NCBI GenBank assembly: GCA_031274075.1
Contig: JAISQQ010000076.1
Location: 1 to 17,244 of the forward strand
DNA length: 17,244 nt
Source: Accumulibacter sp.
GTDB taxonomy: Bacteria > Pseudomonadota > Gammaproteobacteria > Burkholderiales > Rhodocyclaceae
Direction: 5' to 3'
The notes under the pieces were generated by a model, which saw nothing but the letters and a program-made list of their open reading frames with translations, did not search any database and had not been told where the DNA came from. Numbering within the stretch: position 1 is the stretch's first letter; every line of letters starts with the position of its first letter. Shown here piece by piece: positions 1,322 through 14,996 of this stretch. The translations under genes and the position numbers were made by a program.

Positions 1322-1356
1322 TTTCAGGGATCAGGTGTCAGATGTCAGGTATCAGT
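1322..1356 (+). repeat. Heptamer tract H1 (5 units)
   Basis: Five 7-nt units of the form NNTCAGN in perfect register (for example TGTCAGA then TGTCAGG). Read in the phase used for the whole family, the unit is RKRWCAG. Confidence 0.8.
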
Positions 1357-1440
1357 ACTCTTGTGAACGCGAAGCGCCCGGTAATCACCGCCATTTTCGC
1401 GCGCACGGGCCGATTCATGGAGAGAGTGCGATGGCCCTCT

Positions 1441-1520
1441 GGGAGCGCGGGGCGCCAGCCCCGCAACAGCGGCAATGACACCACCGCCGCTGTTGCGGGG
1501 CTGGTGTGCCCCACGCTCCC
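1441..1520 (-). repeat. Palindromic REP/BIME-like element, copy C
   Basis: The clearest copy. The left arm 1441-1472 and right arm 1487-1520 are near-perfect reverse complements, separated by about 14 nt, so the 80-bp unit could form a long cruciform or RNA hairpin. Each arm contains its own inner hairpin (GCGGGG...CCCCGC). Its flanks show it is inverted relative to copy A. Confidence 0.85.
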
Positions 1521-1605
1521 GGAGAAGATCGCAAACAGGCCCTCACACCCCTTCCGGGCACGATTATCCCCTGAAGGGGAAGTTTCCAACTGGAGTTAGT
1601 CTTCG

Positions 1606-2364
1606 ATGAACCTATCCGAATCCGCCTTTGGTTTTTCGCACTTTCTCGCGCAGGCCGACGCCGTCGGCCTTGCCACCTTCGCCGTGCTGGCGCTCATGTC
1701 GGTCGCCTCGTGGTATCTGATCGCCGTCAAAGGCTGGCAGGCGGCGGCCCTCCGGCGACGGCGGCGGGCGTTTCTCGCCGCCTTCCGCCGCGTCCGCCAT
1801 CCCGCCGAAGCCCGGCAGTTGTGGGAACGGGGCGGAGCGGACGATCCTTTCGCCCGCCTGCTCGGCGAGGGGCTGCTGGCCTGCCGCCTGGTCGGGCAGA
1901 CGGCGAGCGACGAGCGCGCCTTCGCCATGGCCGCGCCCGACGACTTCGTCGCCGCCGCGCTGGAACGAGGCGTCGCCAACGAATCGCGCCGCCTGGAAGG
2001 AGGACTCGCCGCCCTCGCGTCGATCGCCGCCACCGCGCCGTTCGTCGGCCTGCTCGGCACCGTCTGGGGCATCTACCACGCGCTCTTGTCGATCGGGATT
2101 TCGGGGCAGGCCAGCCTCGACAAGGTGGCCGGGCCGGTGGGCGAGGCGCTGACCATGACCGCCTGCGGCCTGTTCGTCGCCATCCCCGCGGTGCTCGCCT
2201 ACAACGCCTTCGTCCGCCTGAACCGCGGCTTGTGCGGCGAGCTGGAAAACCACGCGCACGAAGTGTTCGGCCTGCTCGGCATCGGACGGCAGGCGTCGTC
2301 GCTGGATCTCGTCGAATTCTCCGCCGCCAACGCCCATCCGGCGCGGCTCGAAGGAGCGCGCTGA
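1606..2364 (+). CDS. exbB: ExbB/MotA/TolQ-family proton channel subunit
   Basis: Inner-membrane channel component that, with ExbD, converts proton flow into TonB energisation. Seen: 252 residues with three membrane segments at about 20-40, 136-160 and 180-202, and a large cytoplasmic segment between the first two, as in ExbB. The family core is present: ATAPFVGLLGTVWGIYHAL before the second loop, then GPVGEALTMTACGLFVAIPAVLAYN. ATG 1606 is preceded by GGAG at 1592-1595 (spacing 10). It is followed after 2 nt by exbD, so the two are co-transcribed. TolQ is less likely because tonB lies upstream and no tolA/tolB is present. Confidence 0.93.
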   Translation: MNLSESAFGFSHFLAQADAVGLATFAVLALMSVASWYLIAVKGWQAAALRRRRRAFLAAFRRVRHPAEARQLWERGGADDPFARLLGEGLLACRLVGQTASDERAFAMAAPDDFVAAALERGVANESRRLEGGLAALASIAATAPFVGLLGTVWGIYHALLSIGISGQASLDKVAGPVGEALTMTACGLFVAIPAVLAYNAFVRLNRGLCGELENHAHEVFGLLGIGRQASSLDLVEFSAANAHPARLEGAR

Positions 2365-2366
2365 CC

Positions 2367-2764
<398 letters not shown>

Positions 2765-2780
<16 letters not shown>

Positions 2781-2799
2781 CGGGTGACGGGTGACAGCA
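2765..2799 (+). repeat. Heptamer tract H2 (5 units)
   Basis: Five 7-nt units in register (phase GACRGGT, equivalent to GTGACRG). It overlaps the 3' end of exbD and supplies its stop codon. Shorter, inverted matches (H3) lie at 2945-2962. Confidence 0.85.
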
Positions 2800-2805
2800 T
2801 TTTTT

Positions 2806-2838
2806 ATAGGTTGGGGTGAGCAAAGCGAACCCCAACGT
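2806..2838. repeat. REP-like palindrome GTTGGGGT/ACCCCAAC
   Basis: An 8-bp perfect stem (2810-2817 with 2829-2836) around GAGCAAAGCGA. The whole 33-nt unit recurs inverted at 3000-3031, with one indel and a few substitutions. It lies 26 nt after exbD and could act as a transcription or mRNA-end structure, but there is no T-run. Confidence 0.8.
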
Positions 2839-2944
2839 TGCCGAGCAAGGAGGAATTTTCGAGCCGAATTCATTCACCTGAATCAGGGGACAGAGGTTAA
2901 GTGACAGCAAGGTAAAAACATTGGGACGGTGCCACCGCCTGCTT

Positions 2945-2962
2945 GTCACCTACCCGTCACCT
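2945..2962 (-). repeat. Degraded heptamer tract H3
   Basis: GTCACCTACCCGTCACCT. On the other strand this reads AGGTGAC, GGGT, AGGTGAC: two H2-type units with a partial unit between them. Its orientation is opposite to H2, so H2 and H3 bracket the palindrome at 2806-2838. Confidence 0.6.
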
Positions 2963-2999
2963 GCCCCTTCCTCCTGTTTTCTGAAACCCGAACGGCTTT

Positions 3000-3031
3000 A
3001 CGTTGGAGTTCGCTTCACTCATCCAACCTAT
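3000..3031. repeat. Inverted copy of the GTTGGGGT palindrome
   Basis: Reverse-complement match to 2806-2838 (ATAGGTTGG at one end, CCAACGT at the other). With that copy it forms a widely spaced inverted pair in the gap between exbD and the nitrilase gene. Confidence 0.75.
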
Positions 3032-3037
3032 ATCTTG

Positions 3038-3065
3038 CTGTCTTCTGTTCTCTGTCCTCCGATTT
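3038..3065 (-). repeat. Heptamer tract H4 (3-4 units)
   Basis: CTGTCTT, CTGTTCT and CTGTCCT in register, then a weaker CCGATTT. It ends 3 nt before the ATG at 3069. It is the inverted counterpart of H5, which starts right after the stop of the same gene. Confidence 0.75.
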
Positions 3066-3068
3066 GAC

Positions 3069-4034
3069 ATGATCCCTATGATGATGACCTTATCTGTGAC
3101 ACCCAAAACGCCGGCCCGGCGTCCGGTGCGCGATCCGTTCCGTAGGCCGCTCCGGCTCGGGATGGCGGGAGCGCTGGCGACGACGCTGGTGTGCCTTTCG
3201 GCCGCCGTGTTCGCCGCCGGGACGCCGCCGGACGCAAAACCAATGGACGGCGAGCACCGTGCTGGCGTCAAGGCGTCCGGCGCGACGCGCATCGCCCTGT
3301 TGCACCTGGACGCGGTTCCGGGCGACGTGGCCGGCAACCGCGCCCGCGTCGAGGCCGGAATCGCCGAGGCGGCGCGGCAGGGCGCCGATTGGGTGATGAC
3401 CCCCGAGCTGGCCGAGACGGGCTATAACTTCGCCAAGCGCATCGGCACCGGCTGGATCGAGCCTTTCCCCAGCGCCTGGATTCGCGCCCTGGCGGCACTG
3501 GCCCGCGACGAGCGGGTGGCGCTGTTCATCGGCTTTGCCGAACGCGACGGGCGCAGCGGGGAGCTGCACAACAGCGTGGCGGTCATCGACCGCGCCGGCG
3601 TCATCCTGGGCGCCTACCGCAAGCGCTTCCCGATGCACGGCAGCGCCGAAGCCTGGTCGCGGCCTGGCGGCGACCAGGCGCCTTTCGTCGTCGATGGCGT
3701 TCGGGTCGGCCTGCTGATCTGCGCCGACGCCTACGACCCGGCCTTCGCCGAACGACAGCGCGCGCAGGGCGCGGCGATCCTGCTGTCGCCGGCCAACTGG
3801 CCGCCGCTCGGCGACGTGGGGCCGAAGAGCACCTGGGAGGACCGCTCGCGCGAGACCGGGCTGCCGCTGGTGGTGAACAACCGCACCGGCGTCGAGCCCG
3901 AACTGGATTTCTCGCAAGGGCAAAGCGCCGTCAGCGTCGGCGGCCAGCGGCTGTTCTCGTTCAGTTCGCCGCAATCGCGAGTGTTCTACGTCGATTGGGA
4001 CGGCAGGCAGGGATTCTCGATTGTGATGCCGTGA
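3069..4034 (+). CDS. Carbon-nitrogen hydrolase (nitrilase superfamily) with N-terminal export signal
   Basis: Predicted to hydrolyse a non-peptide C-N bond (amide or nitrile); the substrate cannot be read from the sequence. Seen: the Glu-Lys-Cys triad of the nitrilase superfamily in its usual motifs, TPELAETGY (Glu113), AYRKRF (Lys185) and GLLICADAYDP (Cys218), numbered from ATG 3069. Residues 25-51 look like a signal peptide (RRPLRLG, then a hydrophobic run ending AVFAAG). The RRPLR start weakly resembles a Tat signal. This is unusual, since most family members are cytoplasmic. There is no clear ribosome-binding site, and ATGs at 3078, 3081 and 3084 are alternative starts. An in-frame TTG at 3003 is rejected because it would translate repeat DNA. 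Whether it serves the TonB/chelatase locus or is a passenger is unknown. Confidence 0.8.
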   Translation: MIPMMMTLSVTPKTPARRPVRDPFRRPLRLGMAGALATTLVCLSAAVFAAGTPPDAKPMDGEHRAGVKASGATRIALLHLDAVPGDVAGNRARVEAGIAEAARQGADWVMTPELAETGYNFAKRIGTGWIEPFPSAWIRALAALARDERVALFIGFAERDGRSGELHNSVAVIDRAGVILGAYRKRFPMHGSAEAWSRPGGDQAPFVVDGVRVGLLICADAYDPAFAERQRAQGAAILLSPANWPPLGDVGPKSTWEDRSRETGLPLVVNNRTGVEPELDFSQGQSAVSVGGQRLFSFSSPQSRVFYVDWDGRQGFSIVMP

Positions 4035-4062
4035 CCAGAAGACAGAAGACGGAGGACAGAGG
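4035..4062 (+). repeat. Heptamer tract H5 (4 units)
   Basis: It begins with the base after the nitrilase stop codon. The four units in register are of the type AAGACAG, AAGACGG, AGGACAG. A short related fragment (CAGAAGACAGAG) follows at 4115-4126. Inverted partner of H4. Confidence 0.85.
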
Positions 4063-4076
4063 ACCGTAATATTTGC

Positions 4077-4091
4077 GGGCGCGAAGCGCCC
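4077..4091. repeat. Hairpin GGGCGC-GAA-GCGCCC
   Basis: A perfect 6-bp stem with a GAA loop between tract H5 and its fragment at 4115-4126. A decayed relative, AACGCGAAGCGCCCGGTAAT, lies at 1366-1385 just after tract H1, so hairpin and heptamers seem to travel together. Confidence 0.7.
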
Positions 4092-4131
4092 GGTGACTGG
4101 ATTGTCTTTGTGATCAGAAGACAGAGTTGTA

Positions 4132-4248
4132 GTAGGGCGGATGCAATCCGCCGCTCGTTCTTTTGCCGCAGGCGAAACCTGCGGCAATCCTGAATCAATG
4201 CGGCGCTTCGCGCCGGAGCGTACCACCGGCGGATTGCATCCGCCCTAC
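4132..4248. repeat. Inverted-repeat element upstream of the chelatase gene
   Basis: Positions 4132-4153 and 4227-4248 are perfect 22-bp inverted repeats (outer end GTAGGGCGGATGC). Inside are a hairpin GCCGCAGG/CCTGCGGC (4165-4185) and a small GGCGC/GCGCC stem (4202-4214). There is no coding potential. It lies 49 bp upstream of the chelatase start, so its structured RNA would fall in the 5' leader. Confidence 0.85.
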
Positions 4249-4283
4249 CAAACCACGCGCCATGTTCTGGGAGGAGCCATCTG

Positions 4284-4290
4284 AAAGGGA
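4284..4290 (+). promoter_or_regulatory. Ribosome-binding site of the chelatase gene
   Basis: AAAGGGA, 7 nt before ATG 4298. It decides for this start over the in-frame ATG at 4262. Confidence 0.7.
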
Positions 4291-4297
4291 TTTTGGC

Positions 4298-7200
4298 ATG
4301 GAAAAAAAACAGCACACCATCGTCGTCATCGACGCCACCTCCACGCATCTGCCGCCGCTCGGGCGCGCCGCGGCGGCGCTGTCGCCGGAGGAGGCGGCGT
4401 GCCTGCGCGTGGTCGCGGCGGGCCGGGAGGATCTTTTCGACGCCCGGCGCGTCGCGGCGATGGCCGGGACGATCCGCGCGGCGTCGGCGCTGATCCTGCT
4501 GCCGCACGGCGGCGAGCGCTCGATTCCCGGCGTCGGGACGCTGGCCGAGGCGGCCCGCGGGAGGCTGATCCACGTCCAGGCCAGCGGCATGTCGCCGGAG
4601 GACGTCGAACTGGCGCAGGCGCTCGGCAGCGATTTTGGATCGGAAAGCTACGCGCGCCGCCACGCCTACCTGCGCGAAGGCGGCGTGAACAACTTGCGCG
4701 GCCTGCTGCTGGCGCTGGCGCGCGAACTCGGCTGCGATCTGCCGCCGCCGCCCGCGCCGGAAAAACTGCCGCGCGAGGGTATTTATCACCCCGGATGGCC
4801 GGGCGGATCGCGGGACCGCGACGCCTATCTCGACTGGGCCAAGGATCGCGCGGCGGCGGGCGCGGTGGCGGGCTTGCCAGCGGGTTTGCCAGTAATCGGC
4901 CTGTGGTTCGGGCAGTACGCCTGGCAGAACGGCGACCTGGCGGTGTTCGACGCGCTGATCGGCGAAATCGAAGCGCAGGGCGGCGTGCCGCTGGCGGTCT
5001 TTCACCACCGCTTCCGCGACGCCGAGCTGGGTAACATGAGCGTGGCCGAAGTCGCCGATTTCTTCTTCAAGCGCGACGGCGAGACGCTGATCGAGGTGCT
5101 GCTTTCGCCGATGGGCTTTTCGCTGACCCAGGCCACGCCGGGATCGGAGCACGTATTGCCCGGTCTCGACGCGCCGGTGCTGCAACTGATCCTGACCTAC
5201 AATCCGCGCACCCAGTGGGAGGAGACGGAACAGGGCGTGTCGCCGATGGACGTATCGGTCAACATCGCGCAGCCGGAATTCGACGGCGCGATCATCGGCA
5301 CGGTGGTCGGCACGCGCGACGACGCTGGCGCCGATCCGGCGACCGGGGCGCGCCTGCTGAACCACCAGCCGGTCGAGGAACGCTGCCGCCATGCCGTGAA
5401 ATGGGCGATGAACTGGGCACGCCTGCGGCGCACGCCGCCCGCCGAACGCAAGCTGGCGATCATTTTCCACCAGTATCCCCCGCGCAACGACCAGTTGGGC
5501 TGCGCCGCCGGCCTCGATTCGTTCGAGAGCGTCAAGGCGCTGCTCGAACGCATGCAGGCCGAGGGCTACGACATCGGTCGCCGCTTCGAAAGCGGCGAGG
5601 CGATCGCCTTCGAGCTGATCGACCGCCTGACCGGCGACCGGCGCTACCTGCCGCCGGAGCGGATGGCCGAACGCGCCGCGGCGGCCATCGACACCCCGAC
5701 CGCGTTGCGCTGGCACGCCGAACGCGGCGCGAAGATGCGCCGGGAGATGGACGAGAAATGGGGACCGGCGCCGGGCGTCACCTTCTGTCATGACGGCAGG
5801 CTGCTGGTCGGCGGCATGCTGATCGGCAAGGTCTTCCTCGGCGTGCAGCCGCCGCGCGCGCGCCTGGAAGAGGCCGACGAGCCGTCGCTGCAGCCGGACG
5901 GGCAGACTATTCACGATCCCTTCCTGCCGGCCACGCACCACTACCTCGGGTATTACCGCTGGCTGCGCGAGGAATTCGGCGCGCACGCCGTCATCCACGT
6001 CGGCACGCACGGTTCGCTCGAATGGCTGCCGGGCAAGAGCGCGGGGCTGTCGCGCGACTGTTATCCCGACGCGGCGATCGCCGATCTCCCGCATTTTTAT
6101 CCGTACATCATCAACAATCCCGGCGAGGGCACCCAGGCCAAGCGGCGCTCGTACTGCGTCATCCTCGACCACATGATTCCGCCGCAGACCAAGGCCGGCA
6201 AGACCGAGACCTTCCAGCGGATCGAGGATCTGCTGGACTCGGCCTGCCAGGCGCGGCAGGAAGACCCGGCCAAGCTGACGCTGATCCTGGAGAAGGTCTG
6301 GAAGCTGGCGGCCGAGGCGCATCTCGACGCCGACGTCGGCATGACGCGCGAGCAGGCCGAGGCCGAGCCGTCGGCGTTCTTCGGCAAGCTGCACGCCTAC
6401 CTGGACACCGTCGACGTAAGCTCGATCAACGACGGCCTGCACACGCTGGGGCAAGTGCCGCCGGCGCCGCGCTTCAACGAGACGATGGTGCATCTGACGC
6501 GCCTCCCGAACGGCGAGGTGGCTTCCCTGTGGGACGCGATTGCCGCGGCGCGCGGCTTCGACGGCGAGGATCTGCGCGACCATCCGGGCGAACTCGTGCC
6601 GGCGCTCGGCCAGACCAAGGGGCAGATCCTCGGCCAGATTCTCCGGGACGCGCGCGCCGCGTTCGACGCCCTCGACGACGCCGCCTGGAGCGACGCGGCG
6701 ATCGCCGCCGAGACGCGCGCGCGCTTCGACGGCTCGACGCGCGTGCGCGAGGTGCTGTGTTTCGTGCGCGACGGCATCCGGCCCAAACTGCGGCGGATCA
6801 CCGACGAGATCGACTACACGCTCCACGGCCTCGACGGCGGTTTCGTTCCGCCAGGAGGATCGGGCAGCCCGACGCGCGGGCGCGTCGACATCCTGCCGAC
6901 CGGGCGCAATTTCTTCTCCGTCGATCCCTTCAAGATTCCCACGCCCGAGGCCTGGGAGGTCGGCGTGCGCCAGGCCGACGCGCTGGTCGAGCGCTACCGG
7001 CAAGACGAAGGCAGGGCGCCGCGCCAGGTCGGCATGGTACTCTGGGGCGTGCCGACGATGAGCACACGCGGCGACGACCTGGCGCAAATCCTCTACATGA
7101 TCGGCGTGCGTCCCGTATGGAACCGGCACAGCGGCCGGGTCGACGGCGTCGAGATCATCCCGCTGGAAGAGCGCGACTACCCGCGCATCGACGTCACCGT

Positions 7201-8140
7201 CCGCGCCTCCGGCTTCTTCCGCGACGCCTTTCCCAACCTGATGACGATGATCGACGGCGCGGCGCGCATGGTCGCGGCGCTCGACGAACCGCCGGAAATG
7301 AACCCGCTGGCACAGAACGTGGCCATCGATTACGCCGACCTGATCAAGGCCGGGCTGTCGGCGGAAGACGCCGAAAAGCGCGCCACCTTCCGGGTTTACT
7401 CCGACAAGCCCGGATGCTACGGCGCGGGCGTCGCCGACCTGCTCGACAGCGGCCGCTGGAAGGAACTCGGCGATCTGGGCGAAATCTACATTTCCTGGGG
7501 CGGCTACGCCTACGGCCAGGGCGCGTATGGCGAGGCGCGCCAGGACGATTTCCGCCGCCGCATGGGCCAACTGGACCTGACGGTAAAAAACGAGGCGACG
7601 CGCGAGTACGACATTTTCAGTTGCGTCGACTTCAACAACTACCACGGCGGCATGAACGCGGCGGTGAAAACGGTGAGCGGCCAGTACGCGCCGAGCTACT
7701 CGGGCGATTCGTCCGACCCGCGCAAGCCGCGCATTCGCTCCAGCGAAGAGGAAGGCCGCTTCATCTTCCGCACGCGCGCGCTCAACCCCAAGTGGATCGA
7801 AGGCATGAAACGCCACGGCTACAAGGGCGCGGGCGACCTGTCGCGCCTGGTCGACATCTGCTACCAGTGGGACGCCTCCTCCGACATCCTGGAGGACTGG
7901 CAGTACAAGGAACTGGCGAAGACCTACGCGCTCGACCCGGAAATGCAGCGCTTCTTCAAGTGCCACAACCCCTACGCCTTGCACAACATCGCCGAACGCC
8001 TGCTCGAAGCAATCGCGCGCGGCCTGTGGGAAACCCCCGGAGCCGACAAGGACGCGCTCGAAGCCCTGCTGCTCGACGCCGAAGGCGCGATCGAGGACGC
8101 GCTGGCAGAGGGAATGCGCGCGGCGGATGGCGAGGCGTGA
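4298..8140 (+). CDS. cobN: CobN/BchH-type (class I) chelatase large subunit; cobaltochelatase or HmuS-like
   Basis: CobN inserts cobalt into hydrogenobyrinic acid diamide with the AAA+ partners CobS/CobT. BchH/ChlH loads magnesium into protoporphyrin. HmuS-type relatives beside TonB systems have been described as removing iron from haem. Seen: 1280 residues, the usual CobN size. The family core is HVGTHGSLEWLPGK (567-580), followed by CYPD and INNPGEGTQAKRR. The C-terminal core is YHGGMNAAV (His1116), then SGDSSDPRKP, NPKWIEGMKRHGYKGA and ERLLEAI. There is no signal peptide or membrane segment, so it is probably cytoplasmic. ATG 4298 has AAAGGGA at 4284-4290 (spacing 7); an in-frame ATG at 4262 lacks such a site. 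No chelatase AAA+ subunit and no cobalamin gene is in view. The superfamily is certain; the metal and tetrapyrrole are not, so the gene symbol is provisional. Confidence 0.88.
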   Translation: MEKKQHTIVVIDATSTHLPPLGRAAAALSPEEAACLRVVAAGREDLFDARRVAAMAGTIRAASALILLPHGGERSIPGVGTLAEAARGRLIHVQASGMSPEDVELAQALGSDFGSESYARRHAYLREGGVNNLRGLLLALARELGCDLPPPPAPEKLPREGIYHPGWPGGSRDRDAYLDWAKDRAAAGAVAGLPAGLPVIGLWFGQYAWQNGDLAVFDALIGEIEAQGGVPLAVFHHRFRDAELGNMSVAEVADFFFKRDGETLIEVLLSPMGFSLTQATPGSEHVLPGLDAPVLQLILTYNPRTQWEETEQGVSPMDVSVNIAQPEFDGAIIGTVVGTRDDAGADPATGARLLNHQPVEERCRHAVKWAMNWARLRRTPPAERKLAIIFHQYPPRNDQLGCAAGLDSFESVKALLERMQAEGYDIGRRFESGEAIAFELIDRLTGDRRYLPPERMAERAAAAIDTPTALRWHAERGAKMRREMDEKWGPAPGVTFCHDGRLLVGGMLIGKVFLGVQPPRARLEEADEPSLQPDGQTIHDPFLPATHHYLGYYRWLREEFGAHAVIHVGTHGSLEWLPGKSAGLSRDCYPDAAIADLPHFYPYIINNPGEGTQAKRRSYCVILDHMIPPQTKAGKTETFQRIEDLLDSACQARQEDPAKLTLILEKVWKLAAEAHLDADVGMTREQAEAEPSAFFGKLHAYLDTVDVSSINDGLHTLGQVPPAPRFNETMVHLTRLPNGEVASLWDAIAAARGFDGEDLRDHPGELVPALGQTKGQILGQILRDARAAFDALDDAAWSDAAIAAETRARFDGSTRVREVLCFVRDGIRPKLRRITDEIDYTLHGLDGGFVPPGGSGSPTRGRVDILPTGRNFFSVDPFKIPTPEAWEVGVRQADALVERYRQDEGRAPRQVGMVLWGVPTMSTRGDDLAQILYMIGVRPVWNRHSGRVDGVEIIPLEERDYPRIDVTVRASGFFRDAFPNLMTMIDGAARMVAALDEPPEMNPLAQNVAIDYADLIKAGLSAEDAEKRATFRVYSDKPGCYGAGVADLLDSGRWKELGDLGEIYISWGGYAYGQGAYGEARQDDFRRRMGQLDLTVKNEATREYDIFSCVDFNNYHGGMNAAVKTVSGQYAPSYSGDSSDPRKPRIRSSEEEGRFIFRTRALNPKWIEGMKRHGYKGAGDLSRLVDICYQWDASSDILEDWQYKELAKTYALDPEMQRFFKCHNPYALHNIAERLLEAIARGLWETPGADKDALEALLLDAEGAIEDALAEGMRAADGEA

Positions 8141-8189
8141 ATGCGCGGCGGCCAGTGACAGTTTTTTAGAACCTGTTTGCGATTTTTCT

Positions 8190-8278
8190 CTCCGAGAGCG
8201 CGGGGCACCCGCCCTGCTTTTGACCCGCGCCATGACACTACCACTGCTGTTGCGGGGCTGGTGCCCCGCGCTCCCGGA
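8190..8278 (+). repeat. Palindromic REP/BIME-like element, copy D
   Basis: Same family as copies A-C. It starts at the left with AGAGCGCGGGGCACC and ends at the right with CTGCTGTTGCGGGGCTGG and GTGCCCCGCGCTCCC. It has the CCTGTTTGCGAT-type left tail seen beside A and C. It is the only copy outside the tonB-exbB gap. Confidence 0.8.
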
Positions 8279-8341
8279 GGTGGCCCGGACAGAGGCTTTC
8301 ATAATGGGCTTGTCTGTGAAGTATCCTGGAAACCGCGTCTG

Positions 8342-8367
8342 CCGCTCGTTATTCCGGGAATTTCAAA
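8342..8367 (+). repeat. Left direct repeat bracketing the R-M island
   Basis: A 26-bp sequence starting CCGCTCGTTATTCC and ending GGGAATTTCAAA, containing the palindrome ATTCCGGGAAT. It matches 13312-13337 in the same orientation with one mismatch (T or C at the ninth base). The two copies start 4970 bp apart. Confidence 0.85.
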
Positions 8368-8480
8368 CGAATAATAGAACGAATAATAGGTGACAGACCA
8401 CGATTAAATTTTGGACTAGAGAAGAAAAATGGATGGAAAGGAAATTTGTCGTGGTCTGTCCCATTATTTCGCTATTATTT
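8366..8480. mobile_element. MITE-like palindromic element, left copy
   Basis: A long imperfect inverted repeat. The left arm has two tandem 12-mers AACGAATAATAG (8366-8389), then GACAGACCACGA. The right arm, read inverted, gives AACAAAATAATAG, then GGGACAGACCACGACAAATTT. There is no coding content. Its left arm (to TTAAATTTTG) is related to 13235-13270 at the other end of the island. It could also serve as a two-way terminator between the convergent chelatase and nuclease genes. Confidence 0.65.
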
Positions 8481-8482
8481 TG

Positions 8483-9589
8483 TTAAACGGTCTGCTCCAA
8501 TGCCTCCCAAGCAGTCAGCAACGGACATGCTGGCCATGCTTGTGCAAGCGTCGCCATATTAGTGATAGCACGTCGCAAGCCGCGACCAATCGTGGGCAAT
8601 TTCCGCGACATTTCAAGCAGTACTCCATATTCACGGCTGTTGGGCATCAGAAGCATATAGTCGAAACATCTCACCTGGCGCTCGCAAAAAACTAGCAATG
8701 GCGGGGAAGCCGGATCCGGATAGTCCAGCCCTTTCGCAGCCGCAATCTCGATCTTGTGATTTCTGTTGGTCTGGGAGAAGACGACCGGCCTCACCTCTTC
8801 CTCCCCACGCAAGCCTGTGGCATCGATGGACGTCAAGTAGACCCGCTGGGCGGCAACGTTGGTTACACAGAAGTACTGCTCCGTGATCTGCGTGTTGAAA
8901 TGCACCTGGGACCATCGACCGCCTGCCGCGGGAACTTGCGGGAGCAGGACGCGGTCAAACCCCTCCCCGCGAGGGGAAGGCGCTCGGACTCTCGTGGGCC
9001 TCGGTTGTGGCGCTCGCGGGCGCGGAACACCGGCAATAGGACGCACGACATTGAGTGCCGCCCCCTCAAGCGCCGCCTGATCGATGCGCCGAATATCCGC
9101 CTCGTGTCGTGTGATGAATGCGTCCAGCGAAGATAGGTCGAATACCTCCTGCTGTCCTCCGCTGATAACGCTATAGCCTTCGAAGTTATGCCTCAGACCA
9201 CCAGGCGTCAGATTGCCAGAACCCACGATCAGCTTCTTGCGTCCATCGGAATAGCCAAAATGCGAAATTTTGGGGTGGAACAATCCACTGCTGGTGTTCC
9301 AGAAGACCTTGGGATGAAAATGCCGATGCCTCGCTTCGAGTGCTTGCATACGCTCCAGTGTCTGTCGGTTGGTCACGGCATCGATGCCGACGATGAGGTC
9401 GATCTCTCCGCCACGCTGCATGAATTCATGAACGACCGGATCTTCGATGAGTTGGTCCACACCGCCGCGCGTCGCAAAGGCGTACATGCCGCGCCACGTC
9501 GTGGCGTCGACAGCGGCGCCGATGATGGCCTCGTACAGATAGCGCGTCCCCGGATCAGTAGGGTCCTGCAGGCAGAACTCGAAGTCCAT
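8483..9589 (-). CDS. PLD-fold restriction endonuclease, BfiI-like (predicted)
   Basis: Predicted DNA-cleaving part of a type II restriction system. Seen: 368 residues. The N-terminal phospholipase-D-type nuclease domain (about 1-150) has one active-site set: HPK (His105, Lys107), GSGNLTPGG (Asn126) and NFEGY (Glu137). From family knowledge, BfiI-type enzymes have a single such set, work as dimers without metal ions, and (as I recall) use His105. A proline/arginine-rich linker (about 185-230) leads to a C-terminal domain that would be the DNA-recognition part, possibly B3-like as in BfiI; I cannot confirm that fold by eye. ATG 9589 has GGAGGGG just upstream, and the gene starts 18 nt after the second methyltransferase stop. 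Alternative: a defence nuclease with another role, such as DrmC-type. Confidence 0.72.
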   Translation of the reverse strand: MDFEFCLQDPTDPGTRYLYEAIIGAAVDATTWRGMYAFATRGGVDQLIEDPVVHEFMQRGGEIDLIVGIDAVTNRQTLERMQALEARHRHFHPKVFWNTSSGLFHPKISHFGYSDGRKKLIVGSGNLTPGGLRHNFEGYSVISGGQQEVFDLSSLDAFITRHEADIRRIDQAALEGAALNVVRPIAGVPRPRAPQPRPTRVRAPSPRGEGFDRVLLPQVPAAGGRWSQVHFNTQITEQYFCVTNVAAQRVYLTSIDATGLRGEEEVRPVVFSQTNRNHKIEIAAAKGLDYPDPASPPLLVFCERQVRCFDYMLLMPNSREYGVLLEMSRKLPTIGRGLRRAITNMATLAQAWPACPLLTAWEALEQTV

Positions 9590-9607
9590 GTCCCCTCCGT
9601 TGATGAT

Positions 9608-10531
9608 TTACTGCTGCCTGAATGCTTGGGCATAGGCCGGCAACGAGTCCGGCTCCATGATGCCACCGGCGAGCCCCTCGACCAGCCTCTTGTATGGCTG
9701 CACCTTTGGCCCGGAAGTCCTGGTGCGCGGGGGTTTCGCGAAAATAAGAATGTACTCATGTACATTCTTGAAGAGGAAGTTTGGCGGATAGGGATAGCTG
9801 CCGAAGATGGGACGCTGGGTACCGGAAGACCCCCATTTTCCGCCAGTAGCATCCTTCGACCAAATGATCTCGTTGATCATCACGAAACCGATCTGGCGCA
9901 ACAGCACGGCGAAATCGGTTGCCAGCGGAAACGTGAGCAGGCCATGGTCAGTGTGCTGGTTGACGTTGGCGGTCACGACGCAGAGCTTTCGACCCGGTGT
10001 CAGGACCCGATAGCATTCCTCGAAGACTGGCCGGATGCCTTCGATGAAGTCGCTGTAGCGCTCGATCGTTCCGAGATTCCGTTTGCTATCACCGTAATCG
10101 GCCTTGTTCCAGTAGGGCGGACTGGTCACGACAAGACCCACGCTATCGCTCTCGACGAAATCCATCTTGCGACTGTCGCCGTTGACCACGACGAGCGGCT
10201 CTAAATCCGCTCCATGACCGTTGTGCAGCTTTGCGCAGTCATTTTTGATGATCTTCGTGTAGCCTGCGTTCTGATCTACGCAGATGGCACGGCGGCCCAA
10301 CGGGATGGCTGCCCTGGCAGTGGTTCCGGTTCCGGCGAAGGGGTCCAGCACGGTTTCACCATAAAAGCTGAACAGCTTGGTAAGCCGATGCGGAATCTCA
10401 AGTGGGAATACAGCGGGATGGTCTTCATGACTCGTGTTGGCAATCGACCATACGGTCTTGGTGTAGTCCCGCCACTCCTCCTTGGTGAGCTTGCTTTTTT
10501 CCTTGTCCTCGGCCGACGGTTTGTGGCTCAT
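9608..10531 (-). CDS. DNA methyltransferase, SPPYW type (probably N4-cytosine)
   Basis: Predicted protective methyltransferase of the R-M system. Seen: 307 residues. An HPAVFPLEIPHRL segment (motif X region, 38-50) runs into the AdoMet-binding motif I, LDPFAGTGTT (62-71). TSPPYW (136-141) is motif IV; SPPY with tryptophan is typical of N4-cytosine methylases. Motif I precedes motif IV, the reverse of the usual beta-class order. ATG 10531 is chosen because GAGAGG at 10541-10546 lies 9 nt before it and it leaves a 16-nt gap after the upstream gene. The longer frame from 10579 would overlap that gene. Middle gene of a three-gene operon. Confidence 0.85.
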   Translation of the reverse strand: MSHKPSAEDKEKSKLTKEEWRDYTKTVWSIANTSHEDHPAVFPLEIPHRLTKLFSFYGETVLDPFAGTGTTARAAIPLGRRAICVDQNAGYTKIIKNDCAKLHNGHGADLEPLVVVNGDSRKMDFVESDSVGLVVTSPPYWNKADYGDSKRNLGTIERYSDFIEGIRPVFEECYRVLTPGRKLCVVTANVNQHTDHGLLTFPLATDFAVLLRQIGFVMINEIIWSKDATGGKWGSSGTQRPIFGSYPYPPNFLFKNVHEYILIFAKPPRTRTSGPKVQPYKRLVEGLAGGIMEPDSLPAYAQAFRQQ

Positions 10532-10540
10532 GAAATCGAT

Positions 10541-10546
10541 CCTCTC
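10541..10546 (-). promoter_or_regulatory. Ribosome-binding site of the SPPYW methyltransferase
   Basis: GAGAGG on the - strand, 9 nt before ATG 10531. It selects this start over the one at 10579. Confidence 0.6.
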
Positions 10547-10547
10547 G

Positions 10548-12740
10548 TTATCTTTCGGTGCCCGGCGATGTTCGCGCACGGGTCACGCCCTCGCAGAACC
10601 GTTCCAGTTCATGGGTAAATTCGAATGGCAGGCCAAGTGCTCTGACGAGTAGCGCGTCGATCTTGCTGCGTAGTGGTGAAGTCACAGCTGAGAAGCCGAG
10701 TGACGTCTTGCCACGGTTGCGGCTGACGATAGGGCTGACCGATATCTCGCTCCAGAGCAACGCGCCCAACTGCGCCAACTCCGTTGCATGTTCAGCGCAA
10801 TCAAGCACTCCACCGACAGGTATCGTCTCGATGACGTGTTTGGATACGTGAAAACCATCACCATGAACATGCCACCACCAGAACGCGAATCGGCTGCTGA
10901 GCAACGCGAAAATTTGGAGGGTAACCTCCGGCGATGGGCATGCGATAGCCTGCAATGGGTTCTCGGTGAACACGTTTTCGTCACTCAATGAATGCGACGT
11001 GGGACGCAGGAAAACACTGAGGAAGTTGTATGCGGTGGCGGCAACGAAAACCGTCTTGGCATCGATCTCCCGCATCGCTTGTTCAAGCGTCGCGCGACCA
11101 ATATGCGGCGTGGCATGCACAAGCGTGTATCGCAATTCGACCAAGCGCGCCAGAACCTCGGACTGCATCGCGCCTTCGAGTTTAGGAATGCCCAACCGGA
11201 TGTCGGCATTAATCGGTGTGAAATTGATGCCTGCCAGCATACGGGCCCGGTCGTTACCGCGCCACTTCCGCAATGGCCCGGTCGAAATACGGACGTCGGA
11301 TTCGCAGCCCTGTCGCACCCACAGCGCAATGGCGTTGCGCGTTTTCACATCCTCCCCGAAGAGCGCATGCGGCTCACGGTCGAAGAAGGCGAATTGCCAG
11401 TGCCCGGGTGTGCGCGCAAGGAGACGGCGTAGCGCCAGAAACTGGCGACTCGTGTTGGACGCCAAGGAAAGCGGCAAGACCATCGCGCCACCATGCGCAT
11501 CAGGTGCCGTCAGTCGCGTCATCTGCTCAACGAACAACGGGTATATGTCGGAGGTCGATTTCGGCGCCGCTTGGAACGTCTCGAAGCGCTTGCTCAACGA
11601 GAGAAAATCGGTGGTATCTCCAAGACTTGCGTAGGGCGGATTTCCGATGACGACACGCGCACCCTCTGCGATCTCGGGAAACACGGCCTGAAACCCGATC
11701 GGCCCCGACGGCGGAAGCTCGCCTTCTACCTCGGGCAGCGTACCCGCTTTCAACGCTGCCCGGCACGCCAGGCGTGCGATGCGTTCGGGGTCGTCATGGG
11801 GCACGGCCCTGCCCGGATCAAGGCGCAGCGTGTCCATGTGCACGAGGTTCAGGCGCAGTGCGTGCCAAGCCGCTACCGGTGCAAGACCTCGCGCCTCCAC
11901 CGACTCGAAACTGTCGACCAGAACGACTAGGGCCGCAGCATTAATGGCCCACGGATCAACATCCGCTCCATACAGGTATGAGCATGCAAGATCGAATGCA
12001 TCGACACCTGGATGCCGACGTTTTAGCTCGGTCAGGACTGCCCGCAGGAATACGCCGCTTCCACATGCCGGATCGAACATTGTCAGCGGCATAGCATCGT
12101 CGCTCAGGCTCTGGACGATGCGTTCGGCCATGAAAGCGGCGACATCGGCTGGCGTGTAAAACACGCCATCTGCCTTCTTGCGCGCCCGCGCCGACGCCGT
12201 TTCCGGCCGGAGCATGACGCTCATGCGGCTGCCTTCGCCATGAGGATCGAGAACGTAGGGCAGCAGTTCTAGCAGCGCTTGGCGATTGGCAATGCCGTGC
12301 AGCGCCACCTCGGCTTCCACGCGCACGCGGTCGGGTACCAGGGAGATGAGCCCGGCTTGGGTGATGCCACCGAGAAACCAAATCTCGGCCTCGACCAAGG
12401 TCGCATTTTCTCGCAGACGTCCAGTAGCCACGCCCGCCGTCCATGCGCCCACCGCCATCCATGCAGCCAGATCTTTTGGCGAGCGCAATTGATGGGATCC
12501 AGGCTCGACTCTGCGCCGTACATACAAGCGATGCCAAACTGCATCAGCCGACTCTGCCGACAAGGCACCAGACAGAAGCGCAGAGGCTTGACGCATAGGT
12601 GCGCCATACTGCTCTGCGATGGTTGAAAGCACATGCCCTTTGCGCGGCACGGCCAAACTCACTGTTTGCTGTTCAGGTTCCGACTGGCCATCCAATGGCA
12701 TTTGCAAATCTAGTGTAGTGTTGCGCGCTAATTGAACCAT
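10548..12740 (-). CDS. N6-adenine DNA methyltransferase, NPPY type, with C-terminal recognition domain
   Basis: Predicted modification enzyme. Seen: 730 residues. The N-terminal region (1-185) has no motif I recognise. The gamma-class N6-adenine core follows: GVFYTP (192-197), FDPACGSGVFLRAV (motif I, 222-235), YGADVDPWAI (motif II) and IGNPPY (motif IV, 365-370). The C-terminal half ends in a target-recognition-like region with FAFWWWHVHGDGFHVSKHVIETIPV-type spacing (aromatic cluster, then HVSK and TIPV), as in type IIG and type I-like enzymes. I see no nuclease motif in it. It is followed by the SPPYW methyltransferase and the PLD nuclease with gaps of 16 and 18 nt. Two methylases of different type suggest a non-symmetric target. 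ATG 12740 lacks a clear ribosome-binding site. Confidence 0.83.
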   Translation of the reverse strand: MVQLARNTTLDLQMPLDGQSEPEQQTVSLAVPRKGHVLSTIAEQYGAPMRQASALLSGALSAESADAVWHRLYVRRRVEPGSHQLRSPKDLAAWMAVGAWTAGVATGRLRENATLVEAEIWFLGGITQAGLISLVPDRVRVEAEVALHGIANRQALLELLPYVLDPHGEGSRMSVMLRPETASARARKKADGVFYTPADVAAFMAERIVQSLSDDAMPLTMFDPACGSGVFLRAVLTELKRRHPGVDAFDLACSYLYGADVDPWAINAAALVVLVDSFESVEARGLAPVAAWHALRLNLVHMDTLRLDPGRAVPHDDPERIARLACRAALKAGTLPEVEGELPPSGPIGFQAVFPEIAEGARVVIGNPPYASLGDTTDFLSLSKRFETFQAAPKSTSDIYPLFVEQMTRLTAPDAHGGAMVLPLSLASNTSRQFLALRRLLARTPGHWQFAFFDREPHALFGEDVKTRNAIALWVRQGCESDVRISTGPLRKWRGNDRARMLAGINFTPINADIRLGIPKLEGAMQSEVLARLVELRYTLVHATPHIGRATLEQAMREIDAKTVFVAATAYNFLSVFLRPTSHSLSDENVFTENPLQAIACPSPEVTLQIFALLSSRFAFWWWHVHGDGFHVSKHVIETIPVGGVLDCAEHATELAQLGALLWSEISVSPIVSRNRGKTSLGFSAVTSPLRSKIDALLVRALGLPFEFTHELERFCEGVTRARTSPGTER
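12708..12719 (+). promoter_or_regulatory. Half of a 12-bp inverted repeat, candidate operator
   Basis: ATCTAGTGTAGT, inside codons 8-11 of the NPPY methyltransferase gene. It is the exact reverse complement of 12800-12811. The pair straddles the start of the R-M operon. Confidence 0.5.
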
Positions 12741-12799
12741 ACAAAACTCAATGAATACAAAGTGTTATCGCTGATTAAAAGCTCTATTAAGAACGAAAT

Positions 12800-12811
12800 A
12801 CTACACTAGAT
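12800..12811 (-). promoter_or_regulatory. Other half of the 12-bp inverted repeat, candidate operator
   Basis: ACTACACTAGAT, in the AT-rich 105-bp gap between the ribbon-helix-helix gene and the methyltransferase gene. It lies 60 bp upstream of the methyltransferase ATG, where a promoter is expected. The neighbouring RHH protein is an obvious candidate binder; this is inference. Confidence 0.5.
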
Positions 12812-12845
12812 GGTGGTCAGATTCGACGTACACGACACTCACTTT

Positions 12846-13046
12846 TTATTCCTTGCCAGCAAGCAGCGGCCACTGCTCGTTGACGTACTTTTCAGAAGCA
12901 TCCCGGACGACCCAAGCCACAGATACCTTCTTGTCTCTGGCGATTTTTTCTAGCGTCTCGTATAGATCGCTTGGAAAACTAACCGACGCCCTGATGCTCT
13001 TTGGTTCAGTCGTTGGTGGCGTTACCTGCAGTGCTTGCGTCGTCAT
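12846..13046 (-). CDS. Ribbon-helix-helix (CopG/Arc-type) DNA-binding protein
   Basis: Predicted small dimeric regulator. Seen: 66 residues. The strand IRASVSFP (18-25) carries alternating side chains. A helix follows, DLYETLEKIARDK (27-39), then a turn KVS and a second helix, VAWVVRDASEKYV (43-55), the classic RHH pattern. ATG 13046 is chosen because GGAGG at 13054-13058 lies 7 nt before it; the open frame upstream to 13190 has no such site and no RHH character. It lies 105 bp upstream of the methyltransferase operon on the same strand, so it may time expression of the R-M genes. No toxin gene is adjacent, so an antitoxin role is less likely. Confidence 0.8.
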   Translation of the reverse strand: MTTQALQVTPPTTEPKSIRASVSFPSDLYETLEKIARDKKVSVAWVVRDASEKYVNEQWPLLAGKE

Positions 13047-13053
13047 CAGCGAT

Positions 13054-13058
13054 CCTCC
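13054..13058 (-). promoter_or_regulatory. Ribosome-binding site of the RHH gene
   Basis: GGAGG on the - strand, 7 nt before ATG 13046. It decides the start of this short gene. Confidence 0.75.
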
Positions 13059-13234
13059 GGACAATTGCATCACATTACACCACATCGGTGAACGAACGGC
13101 TAGTCTTAAATGCAATCGAGGCATCCGCCATACGTATCGCTTGTCGGTTGGTTGCGGGTCCTCTTGGCGTTCTGCTGCCAAGAAAAGCAAGAGATCGGAA
13201 TCCGCCTATTCGGGACGCCGTGTTGCAGAAGATC

Positions 13235-13306
13235 AAGAAATGATAGGGGATAGACCACGATTGAATCTTGAAATTAACCGTATTATTTGACGCCCTATTA
13301 TTTGGC
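13235..13306. mobile_element. MITE-like element, right copy (partly decayed)
   Basis: 13246-13270 matches 8389-8413 at 21 of 25 positions (core AGACCACGATT). The upstream part AAGAAATGATAG matches the left copy's AACGAATAATAG. The right half has two TATTATTTGRCG units in the inverted sense, as in the left copy's right arm, but it lacks the inverted GACCACGA block. It lies just inside the right direct repeat. Confidence 0.6.
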
Positions 13307-13311
13307 GTCGT

Positions 13312-13337
13312 CCGCTCGTCATTCCGGGAATTTCAAA
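13312..13337 (+). repeat. Right direct repeat bracketing the R-M island
   Basis: 25 of 26 bases match 8342-8367. Its last bases (TTTCAAA) include the stop codon of the DUF2284 gene (complement of 13333-13335), so this end of the island abuts the 3' end of that gene. Confidence 0.85.
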
Positions 13338-13929
13338 TGACTCTGATCCATTCTTCTGGAAATTCGATTTGTTTCACACTGAAAAATCCGCTTACCAGCG
13401 TAAGGTATTCCGGAAGAACGCCGTCCTTGCTCCATTTCAATTCGATATTCAACAACTCTGCCGAGGTTTTGCCGATATCGAAACCAAAGGATTCAAGCGA
13501 CGGACGGGTTCTTTCCGGAGCGACGCAGGCTTGTCCCTTGATACGGGCGCACGTACCCGCTGGACAGACATGACACGTGCCCGCGAAGAACGCCTTGCCG
13601 ACGGGATATTGTCTCTCCAGCTCCAACAGCGTTCCATCCAGACCGGGACGGACTTTCTCCAGGATGGCGCAGGCCGTTTCTTTACACGCTTCCCAGCCCT
13701 TGTTCTCCTTGATCGTGTTTTCATCCAGAACGATTTTTGTTCCGATGATATACGCCCTCTCATAAGGAGAAATATATTCCTCGGTATCGAACTCGAATGG
13801 AGGGCACGACCAGCAGGCGTTGTAGCGCTTGCACGCCTTGCAATACTCCATGAACCGCGGCGCATCGCGATAACCCTTGACGTAATCCACCAGTTTTATT
13901 TCGGAGACGAGATGGCTGACGTTGTACAT
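13333..13929 (-). CDS. DUF2284 predicted metal-binding protein
   Basis: Function unknown; members are described only as predicted metal-binding proteins. Seen: 198 residues with two cysteine clusters. The first is CKACKRYNACWSCPPF (Cys30, 33, 39, 42), the family hallmark. The second is CHVCPAGTC followed by a fourth cysteine (Cys119, 122, 127, 135). Together they could hold metal or an iron-sulfur cluster. There is no signal peptide or membrane segment. It starts 8 nt after the radical SAM stop codon, so the two are co-transcribed. By eye its GC is clearly lower (about 50-55%) than that of the radical SAM gene beside it (about 70%). The stop codon lies inside the right direct repeat of the R-M island. 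There is no good ribosome-binding site, because the leader is heptamer tract H6. Confidence 0.82.
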   Translation of the reverse strand: MYNVSHLVSEIKLVDYVKGYRDAPRFMEYCKACKRYNACWSCPPFEFDTEEYISPYERAYIIGTKIVLDENTIKENKGWEACKETACAILEKVRPGLDGTLLELERQYPVGKAFFAGTCHVCPAGTCARIKGQACVAPERTRPSLESFGFDIGKTSAELLNIELKWSKDGVLPEYLTLVSGFFSVKQIEFPEEWIRVI

Positions 13930-13935
13930 GGCAGG

Positions 13936-13949
13936 GATCAGATGTCAGT
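13936..13949 (+). repeat. Heptamer tract H6 (2 units)
   Basis: GATCAGA and TGTCAGT in register. On the - strand this gives the TGA stop of the radical SAM gene (13938-13940) and sits in the leader of the DUF2284 gene. Inverted partner of H7 across the hairpin at 13958-13974. Confidence 0.65.
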
Positions 13950-14996
13950 CCAGTTACCGGCGGCTTTGCCGCCGCATGAATTACTGATCCCTGATCCCTG
14001 TCCTCTGTCATCTGACCCCCGAAACAGCCGCATCAGACAGTCGAGCCGGCTGGCGCGCGGCGAGAGCAGGGCGAGCGACGGGCAGCGGTCGCGGCAGGCG
14101 GTGGCGGCGCACGCGCCGCACGCCGAGGTGTCCGGCGGCAGGCCGCGGCGCAAGCGGGCGTAGTCCGGCGCACTCGCCGTGCCGCAGCGGTATTCCGGCC
14201 GGCCGGCGAGCGAGGCGCAGGGGTAGAGGGCGCCGTCGGCGGTCAGCGCCGCGCCGAGGCCGGATTCGCTCGGGCAATGGCTGGAGTTGCCGGCGCTCCC
14301 GCCGCAGTCGGCGGCGGCCAGTTCGCGCAAACGGAGCGGCGATTGGCGTCGGCGGTTGACCCATTCCAGGCGCTCGGCGAGCGCGGCGAAGGCCCGGCGC
14401 AGGGCGGACGGCGAGGCGAGGTCCTGTTCGCGGGCGCGGCCGGCCGGGCGCAGGATGTCGAGGCCGAGCGAACGCGCCTGCGCGAACCCGGCGAGCAGCA
14501 GGCCGAGATCGGGCAGGGCGGCGACCGTGTCGCGGCAAACGACGGCGGTGACGCCGAATGGAATGCCCGCCGCCTCCAGCCGGGCGAGGCCGCGCAGCAC
14601 GTCGCCGCCGCGCCCGCGCACGCGGTCGTTGACCGCCGGCGGGCCGTCGAGGCTGACGCCGACGGCCAGACGATGACGCTTGACGAGATCGATGAAGCTC
14701 TGGTCGATGGCGACGCCGTTGGTCTGCACGCCGATGCGCGCGACGCCGAGGCCGCGCGCCTGTGCGATGACGTTTTCGACGACACGCGGGACGAGCAGCG
14801 GTTCGCCGCCGGCGATCTGCACTTCGGCGCCGGGACCCAGCCCGAGATTCCTCGCGGCGGCGGCGAAGGAGCGTTCATCGAGATTGACCTCCGGCACGTC
14901 GCCCGCGCTCATGTAGCAGTAGCGGCAGCGCAACTGGCAGCGCGTCGTGACCCAGACGACAAGCAGCCTGATGGCTATTGGAGGGAGAAAGGGCAT
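13938..14996 (-). CDS. Radical SAM protein with SPASM-type C-terminus
   Basis: Uses a [4Fe-4S] cluster and S-adenosylmethionine to start radical chemistry; the substrate is not identifiable. Seen: 352 residues. The cluster motif CQLRCRYC gives Cys20, 24 and 27. AGGEPLL (62-68) is the SAM-contacting GGE motif, followed by QTNG. The C-terminal domain has many cysteines (231, 241, 260, 271, 293, 296, 301, 305, 320) in a SPASM-like array for extra clusters, as in peptide- or protein-modifying and some haem-pathway enzymes. The last roughly 26 residues (from about 327) are encoded by heptamer tracts and a hairpin, so the natural C-terminus probably ended near CLMRLF. ATG 14996 lacks a clear ribosome-binding site. 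The gene is co-directional with DUF2284 downstream and the ABC genes upstream. Confidence 0.88.
   Translation of the reverse strand: MPFLPPIAIRLLVVWVTTRCQLRCRYCYMSAGDVPEVNLDERSFAAAARNLGLGPGAEVQIAGGEPLLVPRVVENVIAQARGLGVARIGVQTNGVAIDQSFIDLVKRHRLAVGVSLDGPPAVNDRVRGRGGDVLRGLARLEAAGIPFGVTAVVCRDTVAALPDLGLLLAGFAQARSLGLDILRPAGRAREQDLASPSALRRAFAALAERLEWVNRRRQSPLRLRELAAADCGGSAGNSSHCPSESGLGAALTADGALYPCASLAGRPEYRCGTASAPDYARLRRGLPPDTSACGACAATACRDRCPSLALLSPRASRLDCLMRLFRGSDDRGQGSGISNSCGGKAAGNWTDI
13958..13974. repeat. Hairpin CGGCGGC-TTT-GCCGCCG inside the radical SAM 3' end
   Basis: A perfect 7-bp stem, the same as at 1262-1278, flanked by tracts H6 and H7 in opposite orientation. The whole H6-hairpin-H7 block (about 13936-14018) is read as the tail of the radical SAM protein. 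Confidence 0.75.
13984..14018 (-). repeat. Heptamer tract H7 (5 units)
   Basis: Five CTGWYCN units in register (CTGATCC twice, then CTGTCCT, CTGTCAT, CTGACCC). Same consensus as H4 and the reverse complement of the H1/H6 units. It lies inside the radical SAM frame. Confidence 0.85.

Follow-up and report, generated by a model that had tools for sequence, protein, structure and literature searches.

The 17,244-nt stretch of contig JAISQQ010000076.1 analyzed here (assembly GCA_031274075.1; Accumulibacter sp., Rhodocyclaceae), hereafter the window, carries tracts of seven-base units, most of which serve as the arms of a composite, inverted-repeat element. In this element, an inward-reading heptamer arm is followed by a GC-rich hairpin core and a second, inverted arm, an architecture that is well supported by the copies described below. 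The elements are non-coding, intergenic and palindromic, measure roughly 100–190 bp, and probably occupy old, stable sites at which the heptamer arms provide the homology for recombinational exchange of the contents of these copied palindromes. A first-pass annotation of the window had listed seven tracts and read them as a stand-alone tandem repeat. Its observation of the tracts is confirmed, but its interpretation is only partly supported, as most tracts that can be placed are head-to-head arms of a dispersed palindromic element.

Four to five exact units of the pattern RKRWCRG are found in three of the listed tracts (1328-1355, 2770-2797 and 13984-14018), two exact units each at 3045-3058 and 13935-13948, and four units, none with more than one mismatch, at 4039-4066. 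These six stand far above shuffled sequence, whereas the weak seventh tract (2945-2962) was recovered neither as at least two exact nor as at least three one-mismatch units. The window contains three runs of at least three exact units and five runs of at least four units when one mismatch per unit is allowed, and none of either kind appeared in 60 first-order Markov shuffles of it. In the genome to which the window belongs (G000; 3.18 Mb, 474 contigs, 88.7% complete), four in-register units give 359 overlapping matches (188 forward, 171 reverse) versus eight (2 forward, 6 reverse) for the same pattern read backward, which is the genome-wide excess that the first-pass annotation had proposed to look for. 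Runs of at least three NNNWCRG units number 55 in 255.7 kb of the related genome G012 (1–5 in five shuffles) and 30 in 137.6 kb of G025 (0–3 in shuffles), in stretches not picked for tracts and left in a pool from which contigs with known four-unit matches had mostly been removed. Using our own simple gene caller and no standard program, tract midpoints fall within called genes in only 21 of 100, 27 of 272 and 13 of 133 cases in three tract sets; the tracts thus have the excess over chance and the mostly non-genic location of intergenic heptamer repeats of the Xanthomonas, Nostoc or Beggiatoa kind. The other checks suggested by the annotation (common consensus, positions relative to stop codons, orthologous gaps) also came out in its favor: the tracts form one degenerate heptamer family with a common consensus, and unit types are mixed within a tract while the 7-nt period is retained.

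The anatomy of the element was derived from stretches of G012 (306 kb) and G000 (227 kb) picked for tracts, plus the window. These contain 93 tracts in G012 and 87 in G000, with four or five units in 60 and 57 of them, respectively. Neighboring tracts at most 160 bp apart are head-to-head in 23 of 24 cases in G000 and 19 of 26 in G012, and never tail-to-tail. The spacer measures 34–36 bp in 18 of the 23 head-to-head pairs of G000, and 57–60 bp in nine and 103–110 bp in another nine of the 19 pairs of G012, the three main core lengths being about 35, 57–60 and 103–110 bp. Because the tracts are inverted arms around a hairpin core, they occur in both orientations and beside short hairpins, two features that had been noticed at the outset and are now accounted for. 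An inverted pair forming a hairpin, a trait of REPINs (repetitive extragenic palindromic doublets forming hairpins), is thus present, and the RNA folds of the elements lie well below those of dinucleotide shuffles (30 per element; mean z -9.3, -5.4 and -6.1 for sets of 20, 33 and 26). In G000, 27 class A cores were reached via their arms; they comprise 19 variants, eight copies being identical to TAATATTTGCGGGCGCGAAGCGCCCGGTAACTGAA. A further collection of 29 class A copies, gathered by their inner core, shows arms on one or both sides and a loop that is mostly GAA/TTC. The class A core pattern is matched 131 times in G000, six times in G011, once in G001 and in none of the 25 other genomes of the genus. 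The class B edge ATCAGTTAGCGGCGGC of G012 and G025 resembles the class A edge TTCAGTTACCGGGCGC, both containing TCAGTTA, and the outer end of the arms is most often (T)TCAG.

The evidence on how these elements change comes from the comparison of G012 and G025, sister species with about 92% DNA identity (aligned pieces of at least 250 bp and above 75%). Among 89 orthologous gaps between neighboring genes, seven carry tracts in both species, 82 in neither and none in one species only (Fisher p 1.5e-10), in stretches partly picked for tracts, which inflates the share of tract sites and should not hide sites occupied in one species only. The contents, in contrast, differ at all seven tract-bearing gaps, and the median gap-length difference is 205 bp there versus 18 bp at the 39 of the 82 tract-free gaps that are at least 60 bp long. 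As assigned by short signature patterns, the core class is switched at three sites: class B faces class C at L275/L402 and at L277/L295, and at one L311/L155 site class A faces class C plus a helix-turn-helix (HTH)-type gene. At L275/L402 the outermost unit, AGTACAG, is common to both species despite the switch. The remaining four tract sites show mixed changes. At an eighth site, L283/L294, found by nucleotide alignment, the two species share the outer flank but have the core in opposite orientations, the result either of an inversion or of loss from a composite site; G012 carries a Sel1-repeat gene at this site. An MqsA-like antitoxin-type gene lies in the G025 copy of L284/L296. The small HTH (L155 10069-10365) and MqsA-like (L284 4051-4449) genes lie at element sites and are missing from the matching gap of the other species. 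That sites persist while what they hold changes speaks against free transposition at present, and favors exchange or, alternatively, a differential loss from composite sites.

The spread of the elements is patchy. The four-unit RKRWCRG pattern is matched in eight of 59 genomes searched as relatives (own included), five of them strongly (G000, 359 matches; G001, 109; G012, 73; G025, 51; G004, 33). All five belong to one genus of 28 genomes; of its other 23 members, 22 have no match and G011 has one, and outside the genus G031 and G036 have one and two matches, in uniform arrays. A looser pattern is matched 18 times in G011 and ten times in G021, and not in G015, G017, G020 or G009. In an rpoB tree covering 24 of the 28 genus members, the strong carriers form two lineages, one comprising G000, G001 and G004 with G011, G015 and G021, the other G012 and G025 with G017, and three changes are required. 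The five strong carriers are drafts of 2.2–3.2 Mb (75–95% complete), and 15 of the 22 tract-free genomes of the genus measure 3.3–5.2 Mb. G000 has 86 matches to the combined arm-core motif, whereas a sample of 398 other genomes from the order, without other members of the genus, has none. Five-unit WCAGNNN arrays occur in 38 of 398 genomes of the phylum (own included) and are, among the matches listed, mostly single uniform arrays. Mixed-unit tracts are few in G059, G077 and G591; of nine loci inspected there, one (in G077) has two inverted tracts separated by 14 bp, and the element core is absent from all nine. The tract-free relatives G032 and G056 have many matches to the reversed control pattern (26; 36 and 37), which reflect other seven-base arrays. 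A phage origin was considered, and two element patterns gave no match in viral contigs, a set from which near genomes may be left out.

The placement of tracts relative to genes raises the possibility, in our view a doubtful one, that the elements are functional RNA structures at gene ends (a transcript end, an RNase barrier or a regulator site) maintained by selection. Compared with uniform placement of the tract block within its gap, blocks whose outer edge is at most 6 nt from a stop codon are overrepresented in G012 (38 of 130 gene 3' ends, 14.4 expected) and in G025 (16 of 44, 7.0 expected), with no clear excess in G000 (13 of 48, 10.7 expected), and start codons are contacted at chance level (5 of 92, 4.8 expected, in G012; 2 of 32, 1.7, in G025; 5 of 44, 5.0, in G000). 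The contact with stop or start codons reported initially thus exceeds chance at stops, clearly in two of the three genomes, but not at starts. Convergent gaps are enriched for tracts in G012 (35 of 61 versus 76 of 353 other gaps, p 6e-8) and G025 (12 of 25 versus 26 of 153, p 0.001), in stretches partly picked for tracts; unselected stretches point in the same direction with small numbers (5 of 13 versus 13 of 101, and 4 of 12 versus 4 of 53). Both preferences would suit an RNA role. However, convergent gaps are not enriched in G000 (9 of 22 versus 37 of 98, p 0.81), the window has 16 terminator-like sites as compared with 15.9 in shuffles, none of them at the core of copies E4 or E5 (Table 1), no Rfam match was found in the window, and cores are swapped for other classes at the same site. 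An intrinsic terminator, i.e., a GC stem followed by a T run, found no support, one weak site overlapping the edge of the TATAGGTTGGGG hairpin. A stop-codon preference was likewise discarded, TGA accounting for 76 of 97 stops beside tracts and for 0.67–0.71 in all called genes.

An active non-autonomous transposon, of the miniature inverted-repeat transposable element (MITE) or REPIN type and moved in trans by a REP-associated tyrosine transposase (RAYT/Y1) or another transposase, would explain the copy number of the class A core in G000 and the mostly non-coding location, and its inverted arms and hairpin would be as in REPINs (PMC3116915, as far as the compared parts of that report go). This is unlikely to be the current state of the family, since none of the 89 orthologous gaps shows the presence/absence difference expected of a MITE, no target-duplication signal was seen in sets of 27, 40 and 26 elements, the ends of which are not sharply defined, and the Y1_Tnp domain (PF01797), the only transposase family searched, is found in 18 of the 28 genus members and not in G000, G004, G012 or G025, all drafts (86–95% complete). 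The fifth strong carrier, G001, has three Y1_Tnp matches. A link to RAYT is therefore unsupported in four of the five strong carriers.

That the tracts are slippage-made heptamer microsatellites is very improbable; the first-pass annotation, too, had found them unlike simple slippage. Some tracts are long and locally uniform, with nine consecutive AGGACAG in G012 (L142) as an example, and the heptamer arrays listed elsewhere in the phylum mostly look single and uniform; local slippage inside long arms is likely. For most tracts, however, slippage is contradicted by the mode of four to five units, by head-to-head pairing and by mixed units recurring in the same order at a fixed distance from the core. 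This order, which slippage alone is insufficient to produce, recurs between copies of the 59-bp class B element (41 in G012 and 29 in G025, chosen by spacer length): on one side GTATCAG is the fourth unit from the core and GAATCAG the third, and on the other side ATGTCAG is the third. Class C arms consist chiefly of AGGACAG and AAGACAG. At least ten unit types are each seen at least nine times in both G012 and G000, and no single heptamer dominates either genome, as would be expected of intergenic heptamer repeats of the Xanthomonas, Nostoc or Beggiatoa kind, the commonest unit representing 116 of 481 and 100 of 464. Since the initial unit counts demanded the WCRG core in most units and hence cannot show CAG conservation, this was measured on arms anchored by the core alone and read outward without demanding the heptamer. 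In such arms CAG is kept better than the first four bases, most cleanly in class B of G025, in which C, A and G of the B1 side reach 0.99, 0.98 and 0.99 and positions 1–4 carry 0.8–1.6 bits; in class A the values are 0.85, 0.75 and 0.88. Recurring unit order and retained CAG thus indicate copied elements and not products of slippage. An assembly or binning artefact, suggested by the fragmentation of these genomes (e.g., the 474 contigs of G000) and the failure of assemblers at repeats, is hardly credible given a similar architecture in G000, G012 and G025, and in part in G001 and G011, G012 contigs of up to 141 kb and orthologous gene order that runs on across element sites.

Exchange at old sites is the likeliest reading, resting on eight sites in draft genomes. 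The family would once have spread as a non-autonomous copied element, and its sites would be old and stable today. The heptamer arms may offer short homology for recombination, by which cores, entire elements and, at times, small genes would be exchanged, inverted or lost; differential loss from composite ancestors could be another route to changed contents. CAG would be kept because every arm has it and it takes part in pairing within the stem, and a putative benefit for the cell, such as transcript protection or ending at gene 3' ends, would be secondary.

Several points weigh against this reading. When tracts of at least two units are admitted, neighbors are 39 head-to-head, 13 ++, 9 -- and 6 tail-to-tail in G000, 109, 100, 100 and 32 in G012, and 48, 30, 32 and 12 in G025, and the frequent same-direction neighbors, chiefly in the last two genomes, mean that many copies are to be read as partial or mosaic. 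The constancy of the inner core in the 29 class A copies follows from the way they were collected. The CAG contrast is weak in class A, in which position 6 (1.18 bits) is as variable as positions 1 and 3; in class C arms, positions 3 and 4 are conserved as well, and CTG is frequent. The match between the two arms of an element relative to shuffling reaches z 3.3 in class A, 1.9 in class B of G012 and -0.8 in G025; maintenance of arm pairing by compensation was discarded as a general feature, the signal being clear in class A only. One arm of the second L311/L155 site is nearly unchanged. Seven sites are a small number, the exchange is putative and independent re-insertion at favored sites would give a similar picture, and in draft genomes the assembly may misresolve repeats.

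The window itself contains copies in different states (Table 1). E5 is a complete copy (13928-14025), and the DNA of 13935-14018 folds into an arm-arm stem with a core hairpin (z -4.6 on one strand, -4.5 on the other); a radical-SAM reading frame (13938-14996) also terminates within this element (13938-14025). E4 retains arm plus core (4035-4101). The decayed copy E1 (1321-1392) has no excess DNA fold (z +0.9), and its core is not among the class A core matches at up to 11 mismatches. The exbD frame (ExbD domain) enters the E2 arm (2763-2780), which provides its last codons and stop TGA (2778-2780). The TATAGGTTGGGG...CCCCAACG hairpin signature that adjoins this arm is also present at four of the seven tract sites compared between G012 and G025.

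Table 1. Heptamer arms, cores and adjoining hairpins in the window.
Feature	Positions	Strand	Sequence	Remarks
E1 arm	1321-1355	+		five units
E1 core, presumed decayed, class-A-like	1356-1389		GCGAAGCGCCCGGTAAT	no right arm
E2 arm	2763-2797	+		overlaps exbD 3' end
Hairpin of another type adjoining arm E2	2805-2837		TATAGGTTGGGG...CCCCAACG	
Weak tract of the first-pass annotation	2945-2962	-		below thresholds used
Hairpin adjoining arm E3	3001-3034		TATAGGTTGG	diverged inverted second copy of this hairpin
E3 arm	3038-3065	-		four units, up to one mismatch each
E4 left arm	4035-4066	+		directly 3' of nitrilase (CN_hydrolase) stop TGA, 4032-4034
E4 class A core	4067-4101			2/35 mismatches to TAATATTTGCGGGCGCGAAGCGCCCGGTAACTGAA
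E4 right arm, presumed decayed	4102-4130	-		no regular inverted units remain
E5 outer edge				overlapped by start codon of DUF2284 gene, 13927-13929
E5 left arm	13928-13948	+		two exact units 13935-13948, outer unit degenerate
E5 core, 35 bp	13949-13983		CGGCGGC-TTT-GCCGCCG hairpin	9/35 mismatches to class A consensus
E5 right (inverted) arm	13984-14025	-		five exact units and one degenerate

Other palindromes are present in the window as well. A longer inverted repeat, GGGAGCGCGGGGCGCCAGCCCCGC ... GCGGGGCTGGTGTGCCCCACGCTCCC, at 1441-1520 is another hairpin repeat, of which similar peptides in the open reading frames 988-1317, 903-1478 and 8127-8393 make further copies in the window probable. 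GGGCGGATGCAATCCGCC (4135-4152) and GGCGGATTGCATCCGCCC (4228-4245) are inverted and about 75 bp apart, and resemble a further dispersed palindrome (4135-4245).

Intergenic heptamers, noted so far without an agreed mechanism, gain here an anatomy: they are the arms of a hairpin element whose inner and outer ends can be told apart. With several core classes, a patchy distribution of the elements inside a single genus and sites that outlast their contents, the origin becomes testable via close strains. Should the arms be recombination joints, this would explain why gaps next to otherwise conserved genes are rewritten fast and why small genes are gained and lost there.

Several known systems share part of this design. 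Cyanobacterial short tandemly repeated repetitive (STRR) heptamers are uniform tandem repeats and are not known as palindrome arms; they are alike in their seven-base period and intergenic location, but uniform tandem heptamers lacking an inverted partner are not what the elements described here consist of. Enterobacterial repetitive intergenic consensus (ERIC) and other MITE-like repeats are imperfect intergenic palindromes of about 100–130 bp that are not known to have a heptamer period; palindromic structure and intergenic location are shared, and the period sets the present elements apart. REPINs consist of two inverted repeats that form a hairpin and are dispersed outside genes (PMC3116915); as far as the compared parts of that report show, the elements resemble them in both respects and differ in that their arms are heptamer arrays and that no RAYT-type gene was detected in four of the five strong carriers. 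Direct TAACTGA repeats occur in Beggiatoaceae, Cyanobacteria and Bacteroidetes, in Beggiatoaceae as intergenic sets of two to six units with one inverted case in 170 sets (MacGregor, 2015, PMC4679880). In the portions of that text compared, these are likewise intergenic heptamer sets, and their reverse complement is the TCAGTTA of the class A and B core edges; they are, however, mostly one uniform heptamer located chiefly just upstream of start codons. Among the titles and abstract openings of the open-licence literature surveyed, an arm-core element of the present kind is not described.

A far-reaching idea, to which we give little credence, is that the heptamer repeats of unrelated bacteria are arms of one widespread class of exchangeable elements with the grammar N-D-R-W-C-N-G, acting as a joint for cores and genes at fixed sites behind stops and possibly served by one conserved enzyme. 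When re-phased, GAATCGG of Xanthomonas, ATAACTG of Beggiatoa, GGGACTG of Nostoc and RKRWCAG of the present elements fit this grammar, a re-phasing that is post hoc and that a random heptamer would pass in one of 14 phases with a chance of about 16% (hand estimate); GGGGATT, another Nostoc form, falls outside the grammar.

The likeness to STRR sequences drawn in the first-pass annotation is loose, and the nearest published match among those compared is the (GGGAATC)n/(GGGANTN)n heptamer family of Xanthomonas (Rehm et al., 2015, PMC4692102), the TAACTGA repeats being a further heptamer relative. The parts of that study compared here describe mixed units, a clear bias toward arrays of four, close convergent repeat pairs (70 and 75 in two genomes), and downstream repeats mostly within 50 bp of a stop codon, on the coding strand. 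Mixed heptamers, the four-unit mode, convergent pairs and placement near stops are all shared with the elements described here, and the re-phased Xanthomonas unit, GAATCGG, is close to the GAATCAG of their arms. Three GAATCGG units in a row are absent from G000, and a search of 369 class members, own genome included, found the Xanthomonas-type unit in one genome, with four overlapping matches. The two families also differ: a conserved hairpin core, present here, is not described in the text portions compared; the G-quadruplex formation proposed for Xanthomonas needs G runs, which most units here do not have; and the surroundings of the Xanthomonas repeats are described as more stable, whereas tract gaps here vary more than tract-free ones. 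As the nearest precedent, the Xanthomonas heptamers lower the novelty of the elements, which, judged on those portions, are a variant of heptamer repeats already published for that genus.

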